Positions 5,272 through 60,329 of a DNA stretch of 64,000 nt are shown here, one piece after another. Every line of letters starts with the position of its first letter. Position 1 is the stretch's first letter. The notes under the pieces were generated by a model that was not told where the DNA came from, searched no databases, and worked only from the letters and a program-made list of their open reading frames with translations. The position numbers and the translations under genes are program-made. Source of the stretch: a virus. Location: positions 1 through 64,000 of the IMG/VR virus record IMGVR_UViG_3300023175_000028, one strand, 5' to 3'.

Positions 5272-5709
5272 TTACGGAGCGTCTACTGGATCGTCTGATT
5301 CAAAGTCGTCTGCATCTGGTGCGCCGTCAACGTTATCAATAGTTGCATCGTCACCTGCTTCTTCCATTTCAACTGCGCCGTCAGATGTGCTGTCTGACAT
5401 ATTCCAAGCAATAGTTGCTCCTGTATCAAGCGTAACTTTACGTCCTGCAATTTTAGTTACTTGACGAGCAGTGCCGCCGTCGTCTTTAACTGTGATAGTC
5501 ATTTCATCTGCACCTAAAGCGGCAGATGCTTTGTCTACTAAGAAACAATCCTTAGTTGTAGTACCGTCAGTTACACGAAACTTTTTAGATCCTAACTGCT
5601 TTACGATCCATCCGTTTACTGATGCAGAACCATCATAGAATTGTACTTTGATTTCTTCGCCGCCTGCTGTAGGTGGTCCAAAATATCTTTTATTAAGTGG
5701 TCTTCCCAT
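5272..5709 (-). CDS. Conserved-type small virion-associated protein, 145 aa
   Basis: 145 residues. The N-terminus MGRPLNKRYFGPP is basic; the middle (INGWIVKQLGSKKFRVTDG-like strands) is beta-rich; the last 35 residues are strongly acidic (EEAGDD, DDFESDDPVDAP). The start has GGAGAAAAC upstream. The gene has its own late box about 100 nt upstream, directly after the terminator of the structured RNA, and a hairpin after its stop, so it may be a single-gene late transcript. I do not recognise a characterised family; similar proteins near gp23 in marine T4-like phages are annotated only as structural or hypothetical. Confidence 0.7.
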   Translation of the reverse strand: MGRPLNKRYFGPPTAGGEEIKVQFYDGSASVNGWIVKQLGSKKFRVTDGTTTKDCFLVDKASAALGADEMTITVKDDGGTARQVTKIAGRKVTLDTGATIAWNMSDSTSDGAVEMEEAGDDATIDNVDGAPDADDFESDDPVDAP

Positions 5710-5811
5710 TTGTTTTCTCCTATATAAGTAGTCCTATCCGGGTTCTATCCGGTACGCTGTGGGTTAAACAGCATAAGTCCGCCACATGATGCGGCTCGCT
5801 ATCTGACATAT

Positions 5812-5827: not shown

Positions 5828-6087
5828 AAAAAAGGCTTACAAAGTTTCCCTTGTAAGCCTTTAATTGGAATAAGCAAAATAGGGAGGATTCGGTTATACC
5901 TCCAACCCCTCGCCGCAGATACCATTCTGAAACCAGGGAGCCTGTTTCCGCTCGGTAGAGCGATGTGACACAGCGTATTTCTACTACCACGCCTGGGTAC
6001 CACCCCTAAACAGCCAAGTTCGACGCTCTGGTAAACGCCTCTTCCTTGCACTATATACATTGGACCGCTAAATCCTTTGTAGCTTAT
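5828..6087 (-). ncRNA. Structured non-coding RNA of about 260 nt, family not recognised
   Basis: A free-standing unit: consensus sigma70 promoter (6094-6121), then about 260 nt, then a strong terminator. G+C over 5881-6060 is about 53% by my count, far above the flanking A+T-rich genes. The ends pair: ATAAGC(6087-6082)/GCTTAT(5875-5870), GGATT(6075-6071)/AATCC(5890-5886), CGGT(6067-6064)/ACCG(5894-5891), CCAA(6063-6060)/TTGG(5905-5902). Inside are CCAGG(5996-5992)/CCTGG(5937-5933) and CGCTC-TACC-GAGCG (5962-5949). The closing stem recalls 6S, RNase P or tmRNA-like RNAs, but I find no RNase P signature and no T-arm plus alanine-rich tag of a tmRNA. A 98-codon frame spans it but reads through the terminator and has no ribosome site. 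Confidence 0.75.
5831..5862 (-). terminator. Rho-independent terminator of the structured RNA
   Basis: Perfect 12-bp stem AAAGGCTTACAA / TTGTAAGCCTTT with an 8-nt loop, followed on the minus strand by TTTTTTCTCTTTT. It closes the transcription unit that begins at the sigma70-type promoter near 6095. Confidence 0.9.
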
Positions 6088-6093
6088 GTATAC

Positions 6094-6121
6094 ACTATAA
6101 CATCTTTTATAGTTATGTCAA
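6094..6121 (-). promoter_or_regulatory. Sigma70-type promoter of the structured RNA
   Basis: TTGACA (6116-6121), 16-nt spacer, TATAGT (6094-6099) on the minus strand. The -35 box overlaps the TGA stop of the small peptide gene. The start of transcription should fall near 6087. Confidence 0.8.
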
Positions 6122-6219
6122 CCAGAAAAATACATTTTTTTTAAAAAAATGTCATTTATTTTTTTGATGTGGTGCTGTCTGATTAGTTGCTTGTAGCACC
6201 AAAGGGTATAGTTACTCAT
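6118..6219 (-). CDS. 33-residue peptide downstream of glutamine riboswitch
   Basis: Too short for normal gene calling. ATG at 6219 with an almost ideal ribosome site AGGAGGAG 5 nt upstream; 33 codons, then TGA. The peptide starts MSNYTLWCYKQLIRQHH and is basic. It follows a glutamine-type (Downstream-peptide) riboswitch by about 25 nt; in cyanobacteria and their phages this RNA class characteristically controls short reading frames, some of which inhibit glutamine synthetase. I see no identity with a known inhibitor, so role is open. The very strong ribosome site and the riboswitch context are the reasons to call it real. An A/T-rich inverted repeat (about 6131-6152) lies inside its 3' half. 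Confidence 0.65.
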   Translation of the reverse strand: MSNYTLWCYKQLIRQHHIKKINDIFLKKMYFSG

Positions 6220-6246
6220 ACACTCCTCCTATTTAAAGGGTTAAAG

Positions 6247-6290
6247 TGCGTTCCTTCGCAATATGCTACTTCCGGCCGTTGGGCTGAACG
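6247..6290 (-). promoter_or_regulatory. Glutamine riboswitch, Downstream-peptide type
   Basis: The minus strand reads CGTTC (6290-6286), AGCCCAACGGCC, GGAAGTAGC, ATATTGC, GAAGGAACGC (6256-6247). CGTTC pairs with GAACG; GCC/GGC and GCA/TGC form the two inner hairpins. The unpaired blocks GGAAGTAG and CGAAGGAACGC are the conserved core of glnA/Downstream-peptide RNAs, which bind L-glutamine. It stands immediately before the 33-codon peptide gene, as in the known class. Confidence 0.85.
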
Positions 6291-6310
6291 TAATATTATT
6301 TATCATTGAA

Positions 6311-6345: not shown

Positions 6346-6417
6346 CTACTTGTTCATTACATACATTGTAACTTCAAATCCAAAACGCATTTCTGTAAAA
6401 GTTGGTGTTGTCCACAT
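6346..6417 (-). CDS. pqqA: PqqA-like peptide, precursor of pyrroloquinoline quinone
   Basis: 23 codons, ATG at 6417 with AAGGAG 7 nt upstream. The peptide MWTTPTFTEMRFGFEVTMY... ends VMNK. It has the whole PqqA pattern: start MWxxP, an acidic/basic middle, GFEVTMY, and total length 22-24. In the known pathway the radical SAM enzyme PqqE joins the Glu and Tyr of E-x3-Y (here Glu15 and Tyr19), after which PqqF, PqqB and PqqC complete the cofactor. None of the other pqq genes is visible here, so host enzymes would have to act on it. A TTTAAATA late-like box lies 22 nt upstream and a UUCG terminator follows, so it seems to be a single-gene unit. The radical SAM gene at 58.9 kb is not a PqqE by its layout. 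Confidence 0.8.
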   Translation of the reverse strand: MWTTPTFTEMRFGFEVTMYVMNK

Positions 6418-6547: not shown

Positions 6548-7708
6548 TTAGCTGAATGAAACGTTACCGTTATCAATTCCAACAAGACCTAAGTAGTCAG
6601 CCGCGTTACCAAGTGAAGACGCAGTGTTTGACAACTCAACATAACCATAACGTGTCATAAATGATACGACTGGCTCGAATGATGATGGGTCAAGTACTGT
6701 TCCTGAGCTCATTAGCGGAATGTATGGGCAATAGAACGCTGCCGCATCTGATTCGCTTGAACCTTTGTAACCGATCAATACTGGTGCATTGTCTGCTGAG
6801 TAAGTATTAACGTATACTTTCATTGCGTTGTTTAAAGTACCAACCATCTTAGTGTTAGTAGGTGCTTCAAATGTACCTTCAGTTGTACGAGCGAACGCTG
6901 AAGTAGTTGCTGACTGAAGAATTGTTAGCGCGAATGGCGAAACAACTGCCCAGTTACCAGCACCACGTCTTGTACGCTGTGCAATTAAGTTACTTACGCG
7001 GTTGATTTGAACTGCCAATGCGGCATGCTCGTCACCAACGAAAGTAGCTGTACCACTTACAGCCGCTTGGTCGTAAGTTTCAGCCGCTGTACCAGCAAGT
7101 GTTTGCAATGAAGCAAGTACTTCCTGATCAATTTCAGCAGTAATTTCTTGAGCAAGAGCAGCCATGATTTCTGCTTCAACATCAATACCGTGCATTGACT
7201 GAGCATCTTGTGCCGCTTCAAATGTCCAACGAGCACTCAACTTACGAGTTTTCGCTTCGACAGTTTGTTTCAAGATTTGAATTGACATTCTGTTACCAGC
7301 TTGTCCTTCAAGTGATGCAGTTGCATCTGCTTTACCGCTTGCGTTACCTGAATACGCTTCAGCAATTTTGAATGGGCTTAGAGCCTCTTCACCTGCTGTA
7401 GCACCATTTGCTGTGTCGCTGTAACGAACACGTAGCGTATGGATCTGGCCCACAGGACCAGTCATTGGCTGTACGCCTACCAACTCGTTAGCAATAACTG
7501 TTGGCATTACACGTCTGATCACTGGAAGGATCACACGATTTAGTGTTGCAACATTACCGGCAGAAGTAGCACCTGCGGTTGCACTCTCTGACAAATACTT
7601 GCGTGTATTTTCAAGAGTTGTTTCCATTACCGCTTTTTTGTTACCTTGTAGGCCTTCAACAAGTGCTTGCTTAGTGTCCTGCCAGCGGCTTTCTAATAGT
7701 TCTGACAT
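6548..7708 (-). CDS. 23: Major capsid protein gp23
   Basis: 386 residues, a compact version of the T4 protein (521 residues). It forms the hexameric head lattice. The stretch NRVILPVIRRVMPTVIANEL and GVQPMTGPVGQI are typical of gp23 of marine T4-like phages. An LSE motif (Leu39-Ser40-Glu41) fits the gp21 cleavage rule [LI]-x-E, so about 41 residues would be removed on maturation. It directly follows gp22 (19 nt gap) with GGAGAAAACC before the ATG and is ended by a strong terminator, consistent with very high late expression. Identity is secure from sequence and gene order. Confidence 0.97.
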   Translation of the reverse strand: MSELLESRWQDTKQALVEGLQGNKKAVMETTLENTRKYLSESATAGATSAGNVATLNRVILPVIRRVMPTVIANELVGVQPMTGPVGQIHTLRVRYSDTANGATAGEEALSPFKIAEAYSGNASGKADATASLEGQAGNRMSIQILKQTVEAKTRKLSARWTFEAAQDAQSMHGIDVEAEIMAALAQEITAEIDQEVLASLQTLAGTAAETYDQAAVSGTATFVGDEHAALAVQINRVSNLIAQRTRRGAGNWAVVSPFALTILQSATTSAFARTTEGTFEAPTNTKMVGTLNNAMKVYVNTYSADNAPVLIGYKGSSESDAAAFYCPYIPLMSSGTVLDPSSFEPVVSFMTRYGYVELSNTASSLGNAADYLGLVGIDNGNVSFS

Positions 7709-32100: not shown

Positions 32101-32646
32101 GACACTTTATATTTGACCTATGCATCAGATCTTAATAAAATTAAATCACTTAGTGACGAAGTTATCTATCATCCAGTTAAGTACAAAGTACTATTTGGAA
32201 ATAAGGCGTCTACAGATTTGCAAGCTACATTTAAAGTTGTTAAAAACCCAGACTTAGTGTTAAACGATAACGAAATTAAATCAGAAGTTATCAGTGCAAT
32301 TAATAAATTCTTTGCATTAGATAATTGGGACTTTGGAGAAAGATTCTACTTTAGCGAATTATCAACATATGTAATGAATCAACTGGCGCCAAAAGTTGTT
32401 ACTTTTGTAATTGTTCCGGTACAAGAAGATCAAACATATGGTTCTTTACAAGAAATTAAATCTGAATCAGATGAAATTTTTATCAGCGGTGCAACAGTGC
32501 AGGATATTGAAATGATTGATGCTATTACAGCAGGAAGATTAAAGGCATCAGGTGCCTTAACTACAGGAATAGAAAATTCTACTACTGGAATACAGAGTAG
32601 TACATCTATTATTAGTACAGACAACAGTGGAGGTCTTAGTTACTAA
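29191..32646 (+). CDS. 6: Baseplate wedge protein gp6
   Basis: 1,151 residues, nearly twice T4 gp6 (660). The N-terminal 110 residues (YIESSEYLALIDMIAFLGQN, IAFRIDLNARENYLELAERR, ESVLRLARLLSYNAKRN) are the gp6/baseplate-J-like core that dimerises to hold the wedges in a ring. Additional beta-rich domains fill residues about 400-950, and the C-terminus (NWDFGERFYFSELSTYVMNQ, FVIVPVQEDQTYG) is again of gp6 type. Start has GAGGAAAGC upstream. Overlaps the next gene by one base (TAATG). Confidence 0.92.
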   Translation: MSSTDRQNRLLLAEDWKRIYQSFRNADFKSYDFDNLRRTMISYLRENYPEDFNDYIESSEYLALIDMIAFLGQNIAFRIDLNARENYLELAERRESVLRLARLLSYNAKRNRAANGLLRIEAVSTTEELTDSNNINLENQTIQWNDPSNPDWYEQFIRVINASLPVNGTYGRPIKKGTVNGIPTEQYRMNSTNTDVPAYSFTKTVDGKSVPFEIVSTDINDGSIAEEAPFPGNNFAFLYREDGRGVASSNTGFFAHFRQGKMDQGQFNVSNPSTSQVVAIDARNINETDVWLYKLDSLGNEQELWSKVDTVEGNNVIYNSLNKNIRNIYSVLTRIEDRISLIFSDGVFGNLPQGNFRVFYRTSKNQRLIITPDNLKGIAVRIPYISRAGKTETVTLTFALKYTVDNSSISESNASIKRNAPSTYYTQNRMVTGEDYQLGPLTVSQEIVKAKSVNRTSSGISRFFDLVDATGKYSTTNLFGTDGAVYKDYLSIKNSFTFDNLTDIEGQIVNTVQPILSSINIRNYYYDQFPKILIEDLGATWVPLSSDTNYFTGRLENAAGVLVKVGTFTGSNMKFVKANSLLKFVPRDGYHFLNGKEEPGEPDYRGGTNYKWVKVVSVIGDGTEQQLDGTGPILFNDEIPANSKLVEIRTALPSTLTDDVQSQVTNQIFAYKTFGLRYSRNDGEWRVITENNLDASGNFSTGKTGDTTNQQLDASWLLKFNTDGEKYTITHRAMRYVFESDKDIRFYYDSSDKIFNNKTGKIVKDKINVLNINTKPDSSEPFNLDYTWEIVEEYRDAEGYVDSKKIQVSFFDDDSDGVVDNPEIFDDIVDETTNPIDKVVVQKKITTTDGVEDYVYIDKNSINLKILETKESLGALSAYDDQTVFYYIKEDIFEVLNGTTSTLSITTDYKANIGRDGLKFQYIHAADQNSRIDPSASNIIDTYLLTRGYDTEFRKWIDDAIAEKPLPPSSDTLYLTYASDLNKIKSLSDEVIYHPVKYKVLFGNKASTDLQATFKVVKNPDLVLNDNEIKSEVISAINKFFALDNWDFGERFYFSELSTYVMNQLAPKVVTFVIVPVQEDQTYGSLQEIKSESDEIFISGATVQDIEMIDAITAGRLKASGALTTGIENSTTGIQSSTSIISTDNSGGLSY

Positions 32647-35600
32647 TGGCTTATAATGATGATCAAAAACCGCAAAATTTACCAGCAGGAAACACTACTC
32701 CTCGTAGAAAAAGTGCTGATCACTTACCTCGATATTTTAGAACAAATGTAAACAATAAGTTTTTATCGGCTACAGTTGATCAATTAATTCAGCCTGGTGT
32801 TGCTGAAAAACTAAACGGATATTATGGTCAAAAAAATGCTAAAGGATACCAAAAAGGCGACTTTTATATAGGTGATGTTTCTAAATCAAGAGAAGATTAT
32901 CAACTTGAGCCAGTATCACTTGTTAAAGACGATCTTAATAATATAGATTTTTATGCAGATTATAACGATTATATTAATCAATTAAATTCGTTAGGATCTG
33001 CAATTGATGATCATAGTGTTTTAAATAGACAAGAATATTATGCATGGAATCCACATATTGATTGGGATAAATTTGTAAATTTTCGAGAATATTATTGGCT
33101 ACCTAATGGTCCGCAAACTATACAAATTGCTGGAGAAACTGACGAGGTAACTAAAACATATCAAGTAACCAGTGTTAACAACGGTGAACATTATGGATAT
33201 GTATTCAATCCAGACGGTCAAACTCAAAATCCAACATTAACGTTATATAGAGGTGTTACTTATAGATTTGAAATTGATGCATCAGGAAATCCGCTATCTT
33301 TTAGAACAAGAAAAGAAACAGCACCAATATTTAGACCAAACATAAGTTATTTTAGAGGAGACAAAGTACAATATGAAGGCTCAATATATTTGTGTACTGA
33401 TAATCACAATGCAGGTAATGAGCTTGACATAGAATTTTGGGATTTAGACACTACATTTAATTTAACTACTAATGTTTCTGCACAAAGTATTGATAATGGA
33501 GTTATTGAATTAACTTTAGATGCAAGTACGCCTAATTTAATTTACTATATGTCAGATAATGATGTATTTGCCAGTGGAACAATTAATGTATTAGACTTAG
33601 TAGAAGCATCGTCTATTAATGTTGAACAAGAAATTTTAAAATTAAAAACTTATACTACAGGAACTGGAGTATCGTTGTCAAATGGTATGAAAGTAGAATT
33701 TGTAGGAAATGTAACACCTGAAAAGTATGCAGAAGGTGCATGGTATGTAGAAGGAGTAGGTTCTGAAATTGATTTAATATCAGAAGTTGATTTAAGTACA
33801 CCGAGTGCATATACTGATGATATAGAAATAGGATTTGATAATGACGAAAACGGCTTTGGAGTTTTACCGTTTTCCGAAGCAGTTGGATATCCATTAAACA
33901 AAGATTACCTTACTATAAACAGAGGAAGTCGAGACGGAAACTTATGGTCTAAATATAATAGATGGTTTCACAAAGATGTTATTGAAAAATCAGCAGAAGC
34001 AAACAAACAAGTATCTAACATTGATCAAAGTCAACGTGCAACACGACCTATTATTGAGTTTAACGCTAATTTAAAATTATATAATTTTGGAACTAAAAGA
34101 AAACTAACAATAGACTTAGTTGACTCTTTTACTAAAGATGTTTTTAGTACTATTGAAGGCTCTGTAGGTTATAATATTGACGATGTTGATGTTACTAACG
34201 GAATGAGAATTCTGTTTACAGCAGATCCAGATCCACGAGTTTACGGAAAAATATTTGAAGTTAAATTTATAACTTTCCAAAACAAGAGACAAATTACATT
34301 ACAAGAAACTGAAGACACAGACCCATTACTTAACGAAGTATTATTATGTAATCAAGGTACTGTTAATAGAGGTAGAATGTTATGGTTCGATGGAAGTGTT
34401 TGGAAATTAGCACAACAAAAAACTGAGATTAACCAAGCACCTCTTTTTGACGTGTTTGACGAAAACGGAAATAGTTATTCAGATACAGAAGTATTTGATT
34501 CTACAACATTTGCTGGAACAAAAATATTTTCTTATGCACAAGGGTATGGAGCAAATGATACAGAGTTAGGATTTCCGTTAGAATACAGATCAATAGAAAA
34601 TGTAGGCGATATAGTTTTTAAATTTAACTTACTTGATGATGTTATTAATTGTGCTTATATTGGTGAAGATGTAATAACTAAACCTTTGTCAGTTGGATAT
34701 ATTAGACAATATCCTAAAAGAAATACTTGGAAAACATTAAGTGGTTGGACTAAGGCAAGTTTATTAAGTAATCAGCCCGTCATTAGACAATATATTAATG
34801 ATAACACAAGAACATTTTTTACACTTGATGTTTATGAAAATAGTGCTTTGTTAGATGACTTATGGTTAAGAGTTTTTGTTAACAATAATTTAAAATTTGA
34901 AAATACAGATTTTACTATAGGATCAGACAATAATAATAATTTAACAATTACATTTAACTATGAATTATCTGAAGGTGATGTAATTATTCTTAAAACAAGA
35001 TCGTCTGCGGAAAAAACACAATACGGCAAATATGAAATTGCAAGTAATTTAGAACGAAATCCGTTAAACCAAGATATTACAGAATTTACATTAGGTGAAG
35101 TTAACGACCATGTTGGTACTATTATAGAAGAATTGACTACGTTTTCAGGAGTGTATCCTGGATTTAGTAACCTAAGAGATTTAGGCGAAGTGTCTCAATA
35201 TGGTAAAAGAATTGTAAAACATTCGTGTCCAATAAATTTACCTTTATATCATATAGTTGATAAAGAAGCTAATATAGTTAAATCATTAAAATTTGCACGT
35301 AGAGAATACGGAAAATTTAAAAGATCCTTTTTACAAAAAGCAAATGATCTTGGATTTAGCGGCCCTGTTAAAGATCATGTTGATTTAATTTTAAACGAAT
35401 TAACAAAAGATAAAATAAAAACAATGCCGTTTTATTTTAGTGATATGGTTCCTTTTACAGGATCTGTAAGATCAACAACAGAAGTTTTAGATGAAGAAAA
35501 TAACTTCTTTGCATTAAACAAAATTTATAATTTTTCACAACCAAGTTCAGATGCAGTACAAGTGTATCTTAACGGAATTCAATTAATATTAAACAAAGAT

Positions 35601-38600
35601 TATACATTTAATGATCAAGGGTTTGTAATTATCACAGCAAATAAATCGCCAGGCGATATTATTGATATTTACGAATACGAATCAACTAACGGAAGTTATG
35701 TTCCACCGACTCCTACAAAATTAGGAATTTATCCAAAGTATGAGCCTAAAAAATATATTGATAACACATACTTAGAACCTCAAGAAGTAATACAAGGACA
35801 TGATGGAAGTATTACTGTTGCATATGATGATTTTAGAGATGACTTAATATTAGAACTTGAAAAAAGAATTTATAATAATATTAAAGTTGACTATGACCCT
35901 GATATGTTTGACATCTATGATTACATACCAGGACATAGTAGAAATACAGGAATAGAACAATCACAAATTAACGATTCAATGATTAGTGATTTTATTCAAT
36001 GGATTCAATTAGTTGACGAAGATTATACAAACAATACATTTTTTGAAAGAGAAAACTCGTTTACATTTAATTATACAGGAGTGTTTGATCCGCAAGATAG
36101 ACCGTTAAACGGTTGGTGGAGAGCAGTTTACAAATACGCTTTTGATACAGACCGTCCTCATACACATCCTTGGGAAATGCAAGGGTTTAGTATTAAACCA
36201 GATTGGTGGGAAGACCAATATGGGTCTGCACCTTACACAAGCAATAACCTATTAATGTGGGAAGATATTGAAAAAGGCATTGTGCGTTTTCCAGATACTC
36301 CAGGGGTAAGTGTTCCTAAATTTGCAAGGAATAATATAACAAATAATATACCAGTAGACGAAGACGGAAATCTACTAAGTCCAGTTTATAGTAGTTTTGT
36401 TAAAAGTTATAACACAACTGAGTTAAATCGTAATTTTGTTTTTGGAGATCATAGTCCAATTGAAACAGCTTGGAGGAAAGGTTCTGAATACCCATTTTCA
36501 TTAATTACTGCTTTGGTTTTAAACCAGCCAGCAAGAACATTTGCGTCAATATTTGATAGAGTTAGACAGACAAAAAATTTATTAGGTCAAAGAAATTATC
36601 TTGGTCCTAATGAACATATTACTTTACAGAAACTTGTTTTTCCAAATGACGTTAATGAAACTAACAGAGTATTTACATCTGGTTTAATTAATTATGTTTA
36701 CGATTATTTGGCAAGTAGTGTTACTACTACTTTTAATAATTATAAAAATCGTTTATCAACAATTAATAACCAACTTGGATTTAAAATTGGTGGTTTTACT
36801 ACCAAAGATAAATTTAAACTAATATTAGATTCAAGAACACCTTTAAATAAAGGTAATGTTTTTGTACCAGAAGAAAACTATAATATTTTCTTAAACAAAA
36901 GTTCACCTGTAAAAAGTATTACATATAGCGGTGTAATTATAGAAAAACAAAGTTTTGGTTTTATTGTAAGAGGCTACGATCAAGTAGCGCCGTATTTTAC
37001 ATATAATCCTGCAATACCCTTACAAAATGATCCTCTTATTAATATTGGAGGAATAAATGCAAGTTTTGTTGAATGGGATAGTAGAAAAACTTATGTTGCA
37101 GGTGCAATAGTACAGCATCAAAATAGTTTTTATAGAGTTGTAGAAACACACGACAGCGGTCAAGAATTTGACGAAACTAAATTTGTAAAAATTCCTGAAT
37201 TACCAGTACAAGGCGGCCGCGAAGCGTATTTTAGAAAAGCATTTAAAAACAACTCAGAAAGATTGCCATACGGTACTGTGTTTAAAAATATACAAGATTT
37301 AGTTGACTTTTTATTAGGATACGGTTATTGGTTAGAAAAACAAGGTTTTGTATTTGATTTTTATTCAGCAAAAGACGAATTTGTTTCTAATTGGCAAACA
37401 AGTGCAAAAGAATTTATGTTTTGGACTACACAGAATTGGAATGCTGGTAGTGTAATTACATTAAGTCCGGGAGCATTTCAAATTAAATTTATTAGTGAAT
37501 ATTCTGTAGTTGATGATATTTACGATACATTTTATGGATATAGTTTATTAAAAGCTGACGGCAAAAAGTTACAACCAGAAAATGTTACGTTAACAAGAGA
37601 AAATCCAAAAGAATTTATTATTAAACCTAAAGCAACAGAAGACGGAATTTATTCTGTTCGCTTGTCGTTAGTACAAAAAGAACATGCTTTGATTATAGAT
37701 AATAAAACAGTATTTGGCGATATTATTTACGATCAAGAACCTGGTTATAGACAACAAAGACTTAAAGTTTTAGGATATAGAACAGATAATTGGGACGGAA
37801 GTTTAAATATTCCTGGGTTTGTTTTTGATGACGCCAAAATAACTGAATGGAAACCATGGCAGGATTATGCAATTGGAGACCTTGTAAAGTATAAAGAATT
37901 TTATTATAGTGCAAAAAATAAAGTAACAGGAACAGAAGTATTTGTAGCTTCGGAATGGGTTAGGTTGTCTGAAAAACCCGAAATGGGTCTAATTCCAAAC
38001 TTTGAATATAAAACTAATCAGTTTGCTGATTTTTATGACTTAGATACAGATAATTTTGATGTTGAACAACAAAAATTTGCACAGCATCTAATTGGATATC
38101 AAAACCGTGACTATTTGGCAAACATTATTAATGATGATGTTAGTCAGTACAAATTCTATCAAGGAATGATCCAAGATAAAGGTTCAAAGAACGCTCTTAC
38201 TAAACTTTTTGATGTTCTTGGCAGTGCAGACAAAGACAGTTTAGAGTTTTATGAAGAATGGGCAATTAAACAAGGTCAATACGGTGCGGCACAAGGGTTT
38301 GAAGAAGTTGAATTTATTTTAGATGAAGATCAGTTTAAATTACAGCCTCAAAGTGTAGAGTTAGTAAATCAAATTCGAGGTGACGAAACAGACTTAGTTT
38401 ATAGAATACGTCCGTTTGAAGTATTTTTACGTCCAACCGATTATGATCATAAACCGTTCCCAACAACATATGTTGATAAAACATATACAAAAAATAGCGG
38501 CTATGTTAATCCAGAAGACGTTGACTTTACAGTTTCAACATTTGATAATATTACAAACATTGATTATACTAAATTATCATACGGAGATATTGTTTGGGCA

Positions 38601-41600
38601 GGAAATGTTGGATTAGGATGGGATGTCTATCTGTATACAAGTGCAGACATTGTTTTAGAATCTGTAAGTGCAGAAAAAGAATTTGTATTTAAAACATTGC
38701 CTACAATGTTTAGCGAAGGCGACATTATTGGTATAGAATATACCGATGCTGAAGGAGTAGAAGTTAAAGAACTTGCAAAAGTTACTCAAGTTCTTAATAA
38801 TAAAATTAAAGTTAATAATACATCTGCTCAAGAGTCAGAAACAATAACTAATCCGATTATTTCAAGGTTTATTAGTGTGCGTGTAAAAGACTTTGACGAA
38901 GCTTCTAAATTAGTCCAAACTTTTAAAACAAATATTGGAAAGATTTGGATTGATGAAGATTTAGATAAAAAATGGAGAGTTATAGAGCAGAAAGCCTCAT
39001 TTGAAGAGCATCAAGTTATATCAAATACTGAGTCTGGATTACGTAATCAATATGGGATTTCAATAGACGCAAGTGATAATAATACACTTTTAGTAGTTGG
39101 CTCGCCAGATGACGATGACGGAAAAGTTTTTGTTTATGTTAGAGCTGGTAACTCAGGTGCTTACTCGCTAAATCAAGTTGTAGAACCAGAGTTAGGAATT
39201 GCAGATTCTAATCAAAAATTTGGAGCATCAGTTGCAGTTACTGATAATGGAAGATATTTAATAGTTGGTTCTCCTGAAGCATCAAATGTTCGTAGTACAT
39301 TTAAAGGCGATTATGATAGCTCTCAAGATTATAGCCAATTTGATATTGTTACTTACAAAGATAATAATTGGCAAGCAACAAAAGACATCGAAGGCGCCGA
39401 AGTAAACATTAATTTTGGCAGTTTTGAATCAGTACCTGAAATATTAAGAGACTTGGGCCAAATAGAAAGTAACGCCGATATTAAACCTGCGCTACTCACA
39501 GGTGATTATCCTTTCACAAATATTAATACAGATCACTTTTTAATTAAAGCACCGTTTGATATGTATGAAGGGTCTGGAATTGGCGATACAGTAAAATTAG
39601 TTTGGAATAAATTAACCCAAGCAAACCAAGATATTGACACATTGCAAGAAGTTTTACCTTTTGCTGATCAAGTACCTGATTTAAGTGCTGAATTTTTAAC
39701 TGCTGGACATATTATTTCTGAAAAAATTGATAGTATTCTTTATGTTGAAAATAGTAATACTATTCCATTAGTAGGTCAAATTGTAGAAACACAAACTGGA
39801 TTTGGTGAAGTTTCTTATACGTTTAATGACGGTGCAAAAGCAACAATTTATATTAAAAATCAAAACGGTACATTTGGATTCTTTGGATCGTTAACTACAA
39901 GCATTGGTGAATTTGTTGGTGAGTATGTTACTGTTGCACCAAATGATACTGTAGCCGATGCAGACGAAAAATGGGGCGGTTACTGGAGAGTTGAAAAAGC
40001 ACCTTATCTTGTAAGTTCTATAAATTCTGATGTAGGACGAGGTTTAGTTTACACTGATGTTATTCCGTCTGGTAATCCTGATCCAAATAGATTTTACTAT
40101 AATATTTTAAATTATCAAACTGATATATCTTCAAGTTTAGATTCAATTCATAGTCAAATTACTACATTAAGTTATCGAGGTAATCCTGGCCCAGGCGGGG
40201 TAACAGATGACTTTGAATCGTCTTTATGGGTAGCAAGAGCACCTAAGCCGTTAACGGATGTGTTAAATGTAGTTGCTCCAGGAGATCAAAGTAATGATAC
40301 TGTTGATTTCTTCTATAATGATTTGCCTAATTATAATACAGGTAATTTTAATAATCCAGAAGATATTGGTCTTGGCGTTGAGCAAATGAATAAAACGCAC
40401 ACAATATATGATGTGTGGGATGGATACATTGATTTTAGAATAACTAAAAACTTAGGCGGAATTCCAATTGAACCTAAAGTTGGACTTACTGTTAGAGATG
40501 TTACTAATCTTGGAACAGCCGAAGTTATGTTTTATCAAAGATTTGATACAAATAATGGTAGAATATATGTTAAAAATGTTACAGGTAACTGGGCAGTTGG
40601 TAATTTATTTGGCGAAAACAGAGAAATTGAGTTTTTAGCAGATGGTTCTGGAGATGCACTTTATGATCCAATTTCGGGATCTCGTGTTTTTGGTCAGATT
40701 GAACAAAGAGCATTTCCGTTAGATGAAGCAAATATTGGTAAACTTGTGGTGTTTGATAACTCTGCAACTATTAATGTTCAAGATGTTGATGCTGATGTAA
40801 CCACAAAAGAAGACACTATTTTAGATAACGAATATTGGTTCTATAGAGAAGAAACAGTATTAGGTATTGCTCGTCCTGCAAACATTCCTACTATAGCCAA
40901 TAACGATTGGGAATTAATTTATAACATTCCTGCATCTATTGACGGTGTGCAAAGTGGACTTACAAAAGAAGGAATGTTTTCTATCTACGAAAGAAAAGGT
41001 ATTGGAGCATTTGTAAAACTTAATTCGTTTACAGTTACAGAACGCGGCAACAATCAATATTTAGGTAGTGAATTAAAAGTTTCAAATAATAACGAATTCT
41101 ATAGACTAATTGTTAAACAAACAGGTGACGGAACAAATACAAATCCTGGCAGACTTTATATGTTTAACAATGGTGAATTTAACGGTATTGACTACGGCTG
41201 GGAATCAGCAAGAGATAAAAATTATAGAGGCCCATTTGACGATACAACATTATATTATCCACAAGAAATTGTTTATTATAATAACAAGTTATATCAGGCA
41301 GAGATACTAAATGGACCCGGAACATTTGATGTAAGAGATTGGAATGAATTAGATCAAAATGTTAATTACTTAGGATTTATTCCAAATAGATCAGCAAACA
41401 TTGTAACAGATGCAGATCAAATTATTGAAGACGAAAATTTATTAGAATTTGCAAGAGCTTATGATATAAGCAAAGACGGTGAAGTAATTGTTATAACAAC
41501 AACATACAATGAAAATGCTGAAAATACTGTAGAAATTTATCGTAATATAAATGGACTATTTTATAGAGATCAAACAATATTATCACCAAGTAAATTAACT

Positions 41601-44600
41601 CAATATGGAAGTAATATTGCATTAAGTAATGATGGAAAATTAATTGCAGTAGGCGCACCATACAATGATGATGAAGGATTAGACCATGGTACTGTTTATG
41701 TTTATAAACAACAAGATGGATCTTTCTTAGAGTCACAAAAACTTTATAGTCCAAAAGATGATAAAACAGAATTGTTTGGATGGTCAGTTGACTTTGATGG
41801 TGATAGACTTATTATTGGTTCTGCTAACGGAGATTCGTTAATTACAACTACTTTTGACGGAAGCAGTGTTGGAAATGAAAAACCAGTTACTACATTTGAC
41901 AAAGAATTTACTACTTTTAAAAATATAACTCAAGATACAGGAAACATTAGAGTATATGAAAGACTAAATGACTATATGTTATATTCACAAACTATTGATT
42001 TTGATAGAGATAACGTTAGTTTATTTGGACGTAGTGTATTATTAAGAAAAAACCATGTTTATGCAGGACTACCAACATTTAAGTCAGGCATATATACTGG
42101 CGCAGTAGTTGATTATAGATTAGACGATAATACTACAATATGGGAAAATCTTCGTGTAACTAAAAATCCTGTAGATGTTAGCAAAATTAAACGTGCTGTA
42201 TTATACAATACAAAAACAAATACTATTCTTCAGTATATTGATTATATAGATGTACTACAAGGAAAAATTGCAGGACCAGCAGAACAAGAGTTGACATATA
42301 AAACACCATATGATCCTGCAACATATAATACTGGTATTGCTCCAAATACTGACAAAACAAATAGCTGGGGAGAAGCCCAAGAAGGTCAACTATGGTGGGA
42401 TTTAACAAATGCTAAGTTTAGAAATCCTTATCAAGGAAATGTAATCTTTAGTTCAAATAATTGGAATTCAAGTTTTTCAAATCAAAATTCTATCGATGTT
42501 TATGAATGGGTAAAATCAAAATATCTTCCAAGTGAATGGGATGAAAAATCTGGTACAAATGAAGGTTTGAAGCAAGGTATAACTGGCAAAACAAGATCAG
42601 GCGACGATGCTTATGTTCTTAAACGTGTATATGATACTGCATCAGGTACCTTTACTAATTATTATTATTACTGGGTAAGAAATAAAACTACATTACCTGC
42701 TATTGAAGATAGAAAAACAACTGCAAGAGATGTTGCAAGATTAATTAGAGACCCAGCAAATGAAGGCTATAAGTTTATTGCACTAATTACTGAAAATGAA
42801 TTTGCCGTATTTAACTGCGAAAACATATTAAGTGATAGAGATATTGCATTAAGTATACAATATTGGACCATTGAAGATCAAAATATTAATATACATAATC
42901 AATATCAAATTATTACCGAAGGATTAGAGACAAGTCTTCCAAGTACTGACATTCAAAGAAAATGGTTTGATAGTTTAGTTGGCTACGATGAGAAAAATAG
43001 ACAAGTACCTGCTCCGGAATTAAGTGCAAAAGAAAAATATGGTATTTTAAATAAACCAAGACAAGGATGGTTTATAAATAGAGAAGAAGCACTTAAAGAA
43101 ACAATTGAAAGAATTAATAGTGTTTTAAAAGACAACCTAATTAGTGATGATAAAGATATTACTAATCTTACAGACATAGATCCAGAGCCAACTAAGTCAT
43201 CTAAGGTCTGGGATAGAAGTGTAGATACAAAGATTGAATTACAATTTGTTGGTGTTGCTAAAGCAGAACAAGCAACACTGGAACCTGTTGTCGAAAACGG
43301 AAAAATTGTTCGTGTAAACATTACTAACGGCGGTCGAGGCTATTTGCAAGAACCAACAGTTACAGTTTTAGGAACAGGTAAAGATGCAGAAATTAAAACA
43401 GTAATTAACAATCAAGGCACTGTTACAGATGTTATTATTGAAAATGCTGGAACTAACTATGCACAAGATAATACAAGATTAGCAGTTAGACGTTATACGG
43501 TATTAGTTAAAGCAGACGAATCATTAAATAACAAATGGGCATTATACGAAAGAGATACTGTTGCTAAAGAATGGATTTTAGTTGAAAGTCAAGCATACGA
43601 TGTAACTAAGTATTGGGATTATATTGACTGGTATGCTCCGGGGTACAATTCATTTACAAAAATTGATACAGTAATTGAACAATCATATGATTTAAGTAGA
43701 CTAAATGATAGTATCGGTGATATTGTAAAAATACAAACAGTAGGTACAGGCGGCTGGCTACTGCTTGAAAAGATTAATAATCAAGAAGGCGAAGACTATT
43801 CAGTAAATTATAAAACTATTGGTAGAGAAAACGGTACTATACAATTTAAAGAAACTTTATATAATGTTGAAGATTCTAAAGTTGGATTTGACACTACTAA
43901 TTATGATGCCTTAACTTTTGATAGTCTACCAACAACAGAAACAAGAATTATTTTAAACACTATTAAAGACAATGTCTTTATTGAAGAATTAGCATTAGAA
44001 TATAATAAATTGTTTTTTGCAAGTTTGCGTTATGTTTTTGCAGAACAAAATTATGTTGATTGGGCATTTAAATCGTCGTTTATAAAAGCAAAACATAATG
44101 TTGGTGAATTAGAACAAAAAGTAAACTTCCAGAACGATAATCTTCCAAGTTATGAAGAATATATTAAAGAAGTTAAACCATTTAAGACTAAAATTAGAGA
44201 ATATCTAAGCTCTTACGAAAGTACTGACGTTGCAGGAAATAATGTATCAGATTTTGATTTACCTGCAAGATACGTTTTAACATCAGACGGAATTGAACCA
44301 TTAAGAGTTAAATCTTATAATACAGGAATTGTTGCAGACAATCCTGAAGAACTTGAAAATTATCCAAATAAAAACTGGATTGATAATTCTGGATATAAAG
44401 TTGTTAAAATTGAATTAGATGATCCAGGTCAAGGATATACATCACCACCTACTGTTACAATTGAAGGAAATAAAGGTGCAGTAGCAAAAGCGTCATTAGG
44501 TAAAAATGGTTCTATTAGCGGAATTCGAGTATTTGATCAAGGAGAAGGATATCTTGAGTCGCCAAAGATTACACTAAATGGTTCTATTTCTCCTGGAGGA

Positions 44601-47600
44601 AGAGAAGCAAGTGCATATGCTATTATAGGAAATAGTCCTGTAAGAAGTATAAAAACAATCATAAAATTTGATAGAGTATCTGGAACATATGAATTTGTAA
44701 ATTTAGACACAATACAAAACTTTGTAGCATCTGGATCTATAATTACATTTGATTTAGATTGGCCTATGGATTTAAGAACAACAACTGTTCGTGTTTTTGA
44801 AAATGACGACGAAGTCCTTGCAAGACGTTATACATATTCTAACCAACTTGATAAATCTAAAGGATATGATAGATACTTGGGTCAATTAAAGTTTGTTGAT
44901 CCACCAGTTGCAAATTCAAACATTAGAATTGAATATTCTAAAGATATAAATTTATTAAAAGCACAAGATCGTATTAATTTAGCATATCAACCAACTGGCG
45001 ATAACTTTGGTAAAACATTAGGACAACTAATGGACGGCGTTGACTACGGCGGAGTTCAAGTAAGATCTTTTGATTTTGGCGGAACAACTGGCTGGAATAC
45101 AGCACCGTGGATGACACAGGGTTGGGACGTATTTGACACTGCATTTGAAGATGAAATATTCTTATTTAAAACAGTAATAATAGAATTTGATTCGCCAATT
45201 AGTGTTAGACCTAATGAAGTACTAACACAAAACAATACACTTGCATCAGGTAAAGTAATTGGATCTACCGAAACAACTGTAACATTGCAAGCAGACTTTG
45301 ATTCTAATTTTTCAACAGAAGATGAAATATATGGAGAAGATAGTACGCTAATTGGCGCAGATAGCTCTGTTAGAACACCAATTAATGTTAGTAATACATT
45401 ACCTTTAAACACTCCGCTTGAAGAAGGAATAGAATATAATGTTTACAGAACAGCATATGATGCTAATGGGCAAGTCTTAACAAATTATAGAGTTGATGAT
45501 TCTGAATGGGACGGCTCTACAGTAGGTACACAGGATAATCCGTATGCAAATATGCTACCAATACAAGGAAATCAAGAAACTGAACTTGATGTTAATGATT
45601 TAGGTGTAGATACTGAATTACAAACAGGAGAAGTAAGACTTGCAATAGTAATTCGTAAAGTTACTTCAGACGGATCGTTTATTCCTGATCCAGATAGTTT
45701 TGACACATCAATTGATGGCGGCAATTTAATATATGGAACAGCTACAGGATTAGATTCTGCAGATATTAATATTGACGGCGACGGATTTGTTACGCCAACA
45801 ACATCTAAAGGTCCTGAAGAAATTGTTCCAGGACAAACATTAGACACTGTAGATATCCAAGTTTACGAAAAACCATCTGGTGGTAGTAGTCAAATTACTT
45901 GTAGAAATTATATTGGTAATGGAGTAAAATCTAATTTTGACATAGGAACACCAATAGGTCAATTTGCCAACTTGTTTGTTAAAGTTGATTACACAGTAAT
46001 GAACACAAATGATTATACAGTAGACGTTGCAACTAATCAAGTAATTTTCTTTAATCCGCCTGCAGATAATTCAAGAATTAATATTATTAATCTTGGAGTT
46101 AGTGCAACAACAATTTTAGATATTGATACATTTATTGGTAACGGAACTACAATAGATTTCTTAACTAATGCAAGATTTGAAGATAATGCAAACGGATTAG
46201 TAACTGTAGATGGCGAAGTTGTAGACATAACTTTAGTTGAGTCCGATGACACATACGAAAATAGTGGTAATTTTGTAGTAAGATTTGCTACGCCGCCTAA
46301 AGATGGCGCAATTATACAAATGATGTTAGCAGTAGGCGGCGTTGAAATATTCCAGCAATACAGTACTGTAAATATTGATACATTTACTGCCGATGGAAGC
46401 ACAACACAATACGAATTGTCTCAAGCACCATTTGAACAACAGCCAGAAAGTGCTTATGTGTTAGTTAAAGTAAACAATAAGATTTTAGATCCTGGTTACA
46501 GTCAAAAATTTGAAGTTACTACTGCACTAAGAGAATACCAATTAGATTTAACACAAATTCCAACTGCAACAGTTAACTCTTTTGACTTGGCAGTATACCT
46601 AAACGGTATTGAACTTGAGTATTTACAAAACTGGACATTTGAAGGCGCAGGATCGTTTAATCCAAATGTACCTCCTCAATCGCAGCCAGGTAGCACTGTT
46701 ACACTTGCCGCAGGTATTGGCGAAGATGGTGATGAATTAACAGTATATGTTCTTACTTCGGGTGAATACAGAATGGGGTATTATGAACAAGATAATACAT
46801 ATGTTAAAACGCCAAAAGTATTAAACTTAGATAATGCATTTAGCGAAGATGATACTATTACAGTTTACCAATTTAGTAATCACGATAGTCAAGGTTTTGA
46901 AAGACAAAGTTTTGAAGTTACAGAAAAAACTGAAACTACACCTGGTACTAAATTATATTACGATTTTAAACTACTTGAAAAAGGCTATATTACATTACGT
47001 AAACCTGCAAGAGACGCAGAATATGTTTGGGTAGTTAAAAACGGCGATTTACTATCTCCAAGTGTTGATTATAGTATTACTTCAAATAGACGTTATGTTA
47101 AATTAGTTCAACAACCAAACGAAGGTGACAAACTACAAGTATTACATTTTTCTGATAATACAGTAGTTGATAAGTTTGGCTGGCGTCAGTTTAAAGACAT
47201 TCTTAATAGAACTCATTATAAACGTCTTGAAGAAATTTATCATTTAGAAGAGCCATTAAATTGGTATGATAAGACAATTAAAGTTGTTGACGGTAACGGA
47301 TTACCGGAGCCTGAAGTTGGAGCAAAATATCCAGGCGTTATCTTTATTGAGGGTGAGAGAATTGAATACTTTAGGAAAGTAGGTAACGAACTATTACAAC
47401 TTCGCAGAGGAACACTTGGAACAGGTGTTAAAGATGTTTATGACGCTGGCACAATGCTTATGGAACAAGGTGTTGATACTACATTACCATACAAAGACGA
47501 AGAAGAAATAATTACAGTTACATCTTCTGGATTTAGTACTGGAAGCGACAGTTATGAAAACAGCCCAGGAATGGGCGTAACCAGTATTACATATGACTTT

Positions 47601-58070: not shown

Positions 58071-58950
58071 AGTTGTTGACCAAGATATAGTTTTTTTAAG
58101 TTATGATGAACCTAACGCAGAAAAGAACTATGCTGATTTGTGTCAAAAAGTTCCTTGGGCTAAACGTGTACATGGTGTACACGGAAGTGATGCCGCACAC
58201 AAAGCGTGTGCAGACATAAGTGAAACTGAATATTTTGTTACTGTAGACGCAGACAATATTATTAATCCTGAGTTTTTAAATCAGGAGATAGATTTAGATG
58301 AATTAGGCGTTACACCTGAGCATGTTTTTAGTTGGTGTGGCAAAGTACATGTTAATGGACTAATGTACGGCAACGGCGGACTTAAAATGTGGACACGTAA
58401 ATTTGTTCACAACATGAAAACGCACGAAGCAAGTGAAGATGGCGACGATAAAGGACAAGTGGAGTTTTGTTTTGATGACAAGTATTACCAGTTTAACGAG
58501 AACTACAGCGTTTCTTATACTAATGCGACACCTTGGCAGGCTTGGCGGGCGGGTTTTCGTGAAGGTGTTAAGATGTGTTTGGATCAAGGGACTAAAGTAG
58601 AAGATCTTCGCAAAACTTGGTGGCAAAACTTTGACCGTTTGCGTATTTGGTGCTCAGTAGGTGCAGATGTAGAACACGGACTTTGGAGCATTTTAGGTGC
58701 TCGTCAAGGATTATATAAAACAATGTGTACTGATTGGAACCATGCAGAAGTAAGAGACTTTAAATGGTTAAATGATTATTGGTCAAACAACGTTGAAGGC
58801 ATTAATGACATCAATAACGAAATTAAAGAGTTAGGCGATAAACTTAGAGAATCTTTAGGCATAGAAATTGGAGAGTTAGACGCAGAGTCGAGTCATTTTT
58901 TTAAGTCAATTTATAGAAATACTCCTCGTGTAGTTAGGACTTATAAATGA
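58057..58950 (+). CDS. Glycosyltransferase-like protein with DxD motif
   Basis: 297 residues. IVFLSYDEPNAEKNYADLCQ is the opening of a GT2-like family found in marine T4-like phages; the DxD-like site is Asp64-Ala-Asp66 in FVTVDADNII. A Trp-rich C-terminal half (TPWQAWRAGFREGV, KTWWQNFDRLRIW) follows. Its stop overlaps the next start (ATGA). Sugar transfer onto host-surface or phage glycans is the likely role. Confidence 0.78.
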   Translation: MSKIRVVDQDIVFLSYDEPNAEKNYADLCQKVPWAKRVHGVHGSDAAHKACADISETEYFVTVDADNIINPEFLNQEIDLDELGVTPEHVFSWCGKVHVNGLMYGNGGLKMWTRKFVHNMKTHEASEDGDDKGQVEFCFDDKYYQFNENYSVSYTNATPWQAWRAGFREGVKMCLDQGTKVEDLRKTWWQNFDRLRIWCSVGADVEHGLWSILGARQGLYKTMCTDWNHAEVRDFKWLNDYWSNNVEGINDINNEIKELGDKLRESLGIEIGELDAESSHFFKSIYRNTPRVVRTYK

Positions 58951-60329
58951 ATAACGAATTAATTAAAATTAAAAACATTTTGCCAATTACAGATAAAGAA
59001 ATAAGTCCTACATTCTGTATGGCTAAATGGCATCACACAACAATATATTTACAAACAGGCGAAACGCATTCGTGTTATCATCCTGCACCTCATCCTATTC
59101 CTTTAGAAGAGATTGCAGATAACCCAAGTGCATTACATAATACAAAAGAGAAAAAAGATCAACGCAGGCAAATGATAGAAGGCCAAAAGCCTACTGGTTG
59201 TAACTATTGCTGGAAAATTGAAGCAATGGGTAAAGACTATGTAAGTGATAGACATATTAAAACAGCGAGTATATATACTCCTGAAAGATTAACTGAGATT
59301 AAAGAAAACGGATTTAATTATGATATCAACCCTGAATATATTGAAATATCTTTCTCGAATGAATGTAACTTTAAGTGCGGTTACTGTCACCCGAAAGCCT
59401 CCAGCAGATACTGGAACGAAATCAAACAACACGGTCCTTACGAAAAAAGCACCGACCACAGACAAGACATAGATTGGTTTAAAGTATATCAACGTGAAGA
59501 AGACAACCCCTATGTAGATGCCTGGTGGAAATGGTGGCCTGAAGTAAGCAAGACACTTAACATTTTGCGTATTACAGGAGGTGAACCTCTTATGCACAAA
59601 AGCACATGGGAGCTTTTTGAACGGTTAGATAATGATCCTAAGCCGCATATTCAAATAGAACTTAATAGTAATTTAGGTGTCAAACATAAATTAGTACAAA
59701 AACTTACTGATACAGTAAGACGTTTAAAAGACGAAAATAAAATTCGTAGTTTTAAATTGTATACAAGTATTGACACTTGGACAAAACGTGCAGAATATAC
59801 ACGCACAGGTTTAGATATTGGTCTTTGGGAAAAGAATTTAGATTATTATTTGTCTAATACAGGTTGGCCAGTAACATTTATGATTACTTTTAATTTGTTT
59901 AGTGTAACAAGTTTTGATACATTGCTTGCTAAGATTTTAGAATGGCGTAAGAAATATAACGGAGATAAAAATGAAACACAATGGCAACGTGTAAGATTTG
60001 ATACTCCGCATTTAAAAGAGCCTACAATTTATGATATGAATATTCTTCCAAAAGAGGAATATATGCCATATATGCATAAACATTTGCAATTTATTAAAGA
60101 TAATGTAAATGATTCTGATCGTACTAAATTTACATCTTTAGAATACGAAAAATTTAAAAGAGTTGTTGATTACATGGAGTCGACACATTATGAAGAATCT
60201 AATTTAAAATTAGCAAGAAAAAATTTTTATAATTGGTTTACAGAACATGATCGTAGACGTAACACTAATTTGATAGACACATTTCCAGAATTAGAAAATT
60301 TTTGGAAATTAACACAGGAAGAACTATGA
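58947..60329 (+). CDS. Radical SAM enzyme with twitch/SPASM-like cysteines
   Basis: 460 residues. The radical SAM cluster motif CNFKCGYC gives Cys140, Cys144 and Cys147; GGEP (211-214) and the TSIDTW strand follow as expected. Before the core are four further cysteines (Cys24, Cys43, Cys85, Cys88 in FCMAKW, HSCYHP, GCNYCW) that could bind an auxiliary iron-sulfur cluster; they lie N-terminal rather than in the usual C-terminal position. Such 'twitch' radical SAM proteins are known from cyanophages without an assigned substrate. Gene order suggests a sugar or peptide substrate in the same pathway. Confidence 0.88.
   Translation: MNNELIKIKNILPITDKEISPTFCMAKWHHTTIYLQTGETHSCYHPAPHPIPLEEIADNPSALHNTKEKKDQRRQMIEGQKPTGCNYCWKIEAMGKDYVSDRHIKTASIYTPERLTEIKENGFNYDINPEYIEISFSNECNFKCGYCHPKASSRYWNEIKQHGPYEKSTDHRQDIDWFKVYQREEDNPYVDAWWKWWPEVSKTLNILRITGGEPLMHKSTWELFERLDNDPKPHIQIELNSNLGVKHKLVQKLTDTVRRLKDENKIRSFKLYTSIDTWTKRAEYTRTGLDIGLWEKNLDYYLSNTGWPVTFMITFNLFSVTSFDTLLAKILEWRKKYNGDKNETQWQRVRFDTPHLKEPTIYDMNILPKEEYMPYMHKHLQFIKDNVNDSDRTKFTSLEYEKFKRVVDYMESTHYEESNLKLARKNFYNWFTEHDRRRNTNLIDTFPELENFWKLTQEEL

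Follow-up and report, generated by a model that had tools for sequence, protein, structure and literature searches.

A glnA-type glutamine riboswitch likely to gate translation of a small helical peptide of a new family from a late transcript of an aquatic phage

The type 1 glutamine riboswitch of cyanobacteria (the glnA RNA, RF01739) lies before gifB/IF17 and IF7-like genes. The type 2 switch, the Downstream-peptide RNA (RF01704), precedes an unassigned ORF of 17–100 aa (PMC2864571), likewise the arrangement at the locus described here. We analysed positions 1 to 64,000 of a viral contig of 67,472 bases (IMG/VR record IMGVR_UViG_3300023175_000028; this whole 64,000-nucleotide stretch is hereafter the window), in which an initial annotation had placed a riboswitch of the glnA/Downstream-peptide class together with its peptide gene at 6118–6290. 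When the whole window was searched with cmscan, RF01739 matched at 6292–6245 on the minus strand, its 47.5 bits lying above the gathering cut-off of 35 (E 2.7e-7), whereas RF01704 gave no match in the window even at E up to 5 in a sensitive Rfam scan, and it is therefore the glnA half of that assignment that stood. The aptamer shows the conserved blocks GGAAGTAG and CGAAGGAACGC and the CGTTC/GAACG stem, as had been described, and its P1 strands are 6290–6286 and 6253–6249. We are in practically no doubt that this element belongs to the glutamine riboswitch class. The only other Rfam match above cut-off in the whole window is a freshwater-2 RNA at 5796–5707.

The aptamer is thus the same as that of the cyanobacterial type 1 switch; both also drive short basic proteins, and in both the hairpin that masks the Shine–Dalgarno (SD) site begins at the base after P1. 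The window differs in that the switch serves a phage rather than a host gene, in its late-promoter box, and in a peptide without detectable IF7 homology. The site annotated at first was real, but its strand had not been stated – the riboswitch, SD site, peptide ORF and all neighbours discussed below are on the minus strand – and the neighbouring pqqA gene, manA-type RNA and freshwater-2 RNA had been missed.

The next ATG after the aptamer, at 6219, is preceded by the SD site AGGAGGAG and opens an ORF ending at 6118 that encodes a 33-aa peptide, MSNYTLWCYKQLIRQHHIKKINDIFLKKMYFSG (6118–6219), which bears out the expectation of a short phage gene with a ribosome site behind the riboswitch. We found that such an arrangement is far commoner than by chance: by strict rules, an ATG-initiated ORF of at most 70 aa led by GGAG or GAGG lay within 60 nt of 83 of 94 viral glutamine aptamers sampled, compared with 49 of 4800 positions picked at random from those contigs. 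An aptamer-pattern scan of viral contigs gave at least 120 contigs, and in the 120 listed a ribosome-site-led ORF stood behind the aptamer in 108, being no longer than 70 aa in 107. Among the matches listed, these peptides fall into at least seven families, with 17 contigs carrying the [YF]xxWC[YF] family to which the window peptide belongs.

The [YF]xxWC[YF] family comprises about 40 distinct members, which in dozens of viral contigs stand directly behind a glutamine aptamer, and a Trp-Cys near the N-terminus is invariant in the 28 members that were aligned. Among the loci examined the peptide stood behind a glutamine aptamer in every instance, and of 80 contigs obtained solely because they match a 145-aa gene downstream in the window, six have the peptide, each behind the riboswitch. 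Close pairs show purifying selection (pN 0.079 vs pS 0.373), and at W-C-[YF] the amino acids are conserved despite synonymous change. The window peptide is predicted by AlphaFold2 to form a single helix over residues 3–32 (mean pLDDT 88.7), and it is basic, with a pI of 9.8. We conclude that the conserved peptide is very probably translated. Pfam, PHROGs and NCBIfam all lack the family, in keeping with its earlier description as unassigned, and a search of solved structures gave no match. With the window peptide as query, isolated phages gave chance matches only (E 7 or worse), and a pattern joining the riboswitch end to TGGTGYTWY was too loose when run over a genome collection, giving 115 matches that were mostly chance. 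A second family behind these riboswitches, WxxYCR, aligns with [YF]xxWC[YF] with an hhalign probability of 93.8%. The riboswitch is therefore of a known class, and the peptide family is new, undescribed and common to many aquatic phages.

Between aptamer and start codon, the expression platform (6221–6248) can form a hairpin in which CACTTT (6248–6243) pairs with GGAGTG (6226–6221) and so masks the SD site (6230–6223). Across viral platforms, CACTT directly after P1 pairs with AAGTG or GAGTG across the SD site. We examined covariation in 76 viral platforms, with the register anchored by the SD site alone and 2000 shuffles, which ignore relatedness. Against these shuffles, pair 3 (C-G 59, T-A 8, T-G 7, A-T 1) was standard in 75 of 76 platforms, the shuffle maximum being 70, and pair 4 (C-G 40, T-A 32) in 74 of 76, with a shuffle maximum of 63. 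Cyanobacterial platforms have CGCCTC/GAGGCG at the place where the phage hairpin has CACTT/AAGTG, and pair 2 is G-C there and A-T in the phages, a two-sided change. The cyanobacterial platforms with this hairpin precede DUF4278/IF17-like genes and genes that we take to be IF7-like, from their riboswitch context and a motif. The SD site is also masked in the unconstrained minimum free energy fold of the window RNA (RNAfold). It is thus highly likely that the platform contains an SD-masking hairpin. In the fold of a longer RNA, GUAGCA of the aptamer pairs with the Trp-Cys-Tyr codons; as Phe variants break this pairing, we do not regard it as a general feature.

Without glutamine, CACTTT right after P1 would pair with GGAGTG and keep the SD site masked, a pairing that the covariation supports. 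In the published crystal structure the bound aptamer reportedly includes the base next to P1 in its fold, and at high glutamine the closing aptamer would take this base and weaken the hairpin, allowing ribosomes to start. A bound-like constraint, in which P1 was forced and the next two bases were blocked, made the fold weaker by 2.9 kcal/mol and left the SD site paired with CCUUU (RNAfold). This persisting pairing would suit a switch by which glutamine turns the peptide off. However, activation is the rule for related riboswitches that share this platform layout, glutamine having been shown to increase expression through both the type 1 and type 2 switches (PMC6316151), and we regard an OFF switch as improbable. 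Since energy modelling shows no release of the SD site, the ON direction rests on that published work, by analogy with which glutamine probably turns translation of the peptide on.

A late-promoter-like box, GATAAATA, is present just upstream of the aptamer at 6297–6304. The late promoter of T4, TATAAATA, has the sequence TAAATA as its core. Of 159 viral aptamers, 104 have TAAATA in the 40 nt preceding them, compared with 2.5% of random 40-mers, and in 93 of these 104 the distance to the aptamer is 11–14 nt, most often 12 nt before P1. When [TG]ATAAATA sites in the window were compared with the ORF list, eight of nine lay just upstream of a same-strand ORF. A late box about 12 nt upstream would place the 5' end of the RNA at the aptamer, within a base or two. 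From the position and conservation of the box, transcription late in infection would start there and the aptamer would be made first; the riboswitch–peptide unit is, in our judgement, probably transcribed late. Taking the locus as a whole, we consider it likely that a late phage transcript begins with a glnA-type switch and that this switch controls whether the 33-aa helical peptide is translated. A TAAATA sequence is also seen just upstream of pqqA, and a GATAAATA box just upstream of the freshwater-2 RNA.

The same module is present in one cultured phage of methanol-consuming bacteria. Contig L094 is 87% identical over the riboswitch region to the four Melnitz genomes, T4-like phages of Methylophilales H5P1, and Melnitz, an OM43 methylophage, resembles the window in having RF01739 with a [YF]xxWC[YF] peptide directly behind it. 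Its riboswitch follows a tmRNA, whereas that of the window follows gp23. In the Melnitz sequence examined (L458) the tmRNA match extends to 1557 and is succeeded at 1565 by the riboswitch, after which come the platform and a 32-aa ORF, MTLYQQWCYLKAQKEYRRRQKILMYFRIRLKG; the stretch from riboswitch to peptide is 1565–1734, or about 46398–46567 of MZ577097.1. A family profile built without Melnitz recovers this peptide at E 5.4e-9. GenBank has an opposite-strand ORF at the site and leaves the peptide itself unannotated. The Melnitz tmRNA has been published as riboswitch-controlled, with the riboswitch placed in the 3' domain of ssrA (PMC9004378). ARAGORN calls a longer tmRNA that extends into the aptamer, which may explain that placement. 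The arrangement points to control of the downstream peptide. The published ssrA assignment probably needs correction, and we suggest that the tmRNA-control reading give way to control of an overlooked 32-aa gene. Pelagibacter phage Mosig likewise has RF01739 before a small basic protein; unlike that of the window, this is a 51-aa peptide of another family (A5 type).

In the window, the riboswitch and peptide sit in a gap of 840 nt between gp23, the major capsid protein gene (6548–7708; PHROG 138, 4.4e-100), and an unassigned 145-aa gene, together with pqqA, the manA-type RNA and the freshwater-2 RNA. The upstream neighbour of the riboswitch, pqqA (6346–6417), encodes 23 aa, MWTTPTFTEMRFGFEVTMYVMNK, and is over the cut-offs of both models (Pfam PqqA, 6.7e-11, 42.3 vs 21.1 bits; NCBIfam TIGR02107, 5.5e-12, 45.2 vs 20 bits). 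Downstream of the peptide, a manA-type structured RNA (5873–6079) matches RF01745 over its full length at E 3e-11 in the sensitive Rfam scan, with a score of 49.6 bits that misses the gathering cut-off of 55.2; it is 77% identical to the manA RNA of phage Mosig, which is itself over the cut-off. A permuted tmRNA at this position was rejected, as ARAGORN gave no match and the manA match was found instead. The RNA has a sigma-70-like promoter (TTGACA-16-TATAGT, 6121–6094), and an intrinsic terminator (5831–5862; a 14-pair stem and T tail) ends the riboswitch–peptide–manA stretch. With its own promoter and terminator and no likely ORF, 5831–6121 looks like a free small RNA. In Rfam manA is a cis-regulatory class; the same free-RNA-like layout is seen in contigs L062, L172, L261, L265 and L283. 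Freshwater-2 (5707–5796, over the Rfam cut-off) stands directly before the 145-aa gene and is kept in all 50 of the relatives tested. Its use as a marker of Methylophilales phages was dropped, since the matches cover pqqA (query 52–134) and not freshwater-2.

The riboswitch–peptide module lies just behind gp23 in most [YF]xxWC[YF] contigs with enough sequence, and other peptide families are also found behind gp23-like genes. The gp23-to-145-aa gap ranged from 154 to about 4000 nt over 57 distinct intervals, six of which have a glutamine riboswitch, 19 a manA core and eight pqqA. The gap has the look of a cargo slot in which one small gene can replace another. Near position 4365 of contig L200, a GTSGY-type peptide of 63 aa is in the slot and behind the riboswitch, as in the window. 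In contigs L031, L035, L058, L059 and L095 the glutamine riboswitch, a WxxYCR peptide and pqqA form one overlapping operon, and supply of the PQQ precursor may be glutamine-gated in these phages.

The latter operons raise the question of whether the short ORF acts chiefly for coupling or as a leader, the riboswitch serving what follows: pqqA in some phages and the manA RNA in others. In those five contigs pqqA and the ORF behind the riboswitch overlap in different frames, and in the window we found no terminator separating the peptide from the manA RNA. However, pqqA is upstream of the riboswitch in the window and in L062, the manA RNA has its own promoter, the next annotated same-strand gene in Melnitz starts more than 100 nt past the peptide, and the conservation of W-C-[YF] despite synonymous change is at the level of amino acids. 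We therefore think it unlikely that the ORF is mainly a leader, and prefer the peptide itself as the product that is controlled.

With regard to the host, a tblastn search of 50,697 phage records with phage PqqA gave 12 matches: nine were Methylophilales/Methylophilaceae phages, one was an uncultured virus, and the other two records bore the name Acinetobacter phage. One of the latter two was inspected (CAKLQF020000010.1, L460); its pqqA is beside pqqB, pqqC and a polyphosphate kinase gene, and since it carries pqqB and pqqC it is a bacterial sequence. PqqA has been reported in a methylotroph virus from Lake Baikal (PMC7678222). Given the distribution of pqqA and the link to Melnitz, a Methylophilales host is likely for the window phage, judged from sequence comparison. 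Phage pqqA, otherwise confined to Methylophilales isolates and mostly unannotated, is a possible host marker. The cyanobacterial setting implied by the initial annotation is unlikely on these grounds; in addition, psbA was found in none of 27 contigs carrying the [YF]xxWC[YF] peptide, many of which are fragments, and a search for the family in 292 cyanobacterial genomes gave nothing beyond chance level. All three psbA-bearing contigs have DUF4278-like YRG peptides behind the riboswitch, and on these limited data the peptide family seems to track the host group.

As to the function of the peptide, the proposal that it tunes glutamine synthetase was unsupported. Homology to IF7 was rejected, hhalign giving a probability of 0.2% against the IF7-like peptides behind cyanobacterial glutamine riboswitches, and it was likewise rejected for the other phage peptide families; the analogy with glutamine synthetase inactivating factors is therefore one of circuit and not of sequence. 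According to the Melnitz authors, neither OM43 nor Melnitz encodes glnA (PMC9004378). If so, glutamine synthetase is excluded as the target in that host, and the peptide could act elsewhere in nitrogen or carbon metabolism. The basic helix with its invariant Trp-Cys would then bind a host protein, and by analogy with the cyanobacterial IF peptides under the same switch we tentatively suggest an enzyme or regulator of nitrogen assimilation. The change of peptide family in L200, with the same gp23 slot and riboswitch, is as expected if the peptides are interchangeable effectors. A signal for lysis or late timing, in which high glutamine would show that protein synthesis is over and the next stage would be triggered by the peptide or its operon, has been speculated on by the Melnitz authors (PMC9004378) and would fit the late box and the position next to gp23. 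Against it, searches of Pfam, PHROGs and NCBIfam gave no lysis homology, and the families differ by phage – DUF4278-like with psbA, another in pelagiphage Mosig – which a host-specific target fits better; we judge such a signal rather doubtful.

Aquatic phages of bacteria that lack glutamine riboswitches might possibly share a common late module, often behind the capsid gene, in which one glutamine switch is combined with an exchangeable, host-tailored effector peptide of at least seven families and, at abundant glutamine, reshapes the nitrogen or carbon metabolism of the host. Phages in general would then use this RNA, so far described mainly in cyanobacteria, to sense the nitrogen state of their hosts. 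The analysis yields a set of conserved small peptides as starting points for target searches and, because Melnitz is a phage in culture, the question of what the riboswitch controls is directly testable there. Elsewhere in the window, a Twitch-domain radical SAM protein (58947–60329, plus strand; NF033640, 1.4e-94) is encoded among glycosyltransferase-like genes, and a single ORF of 5196 aa (32646–48236, plus strand) matches a virion structural protein PHROG in its N-terminal part.
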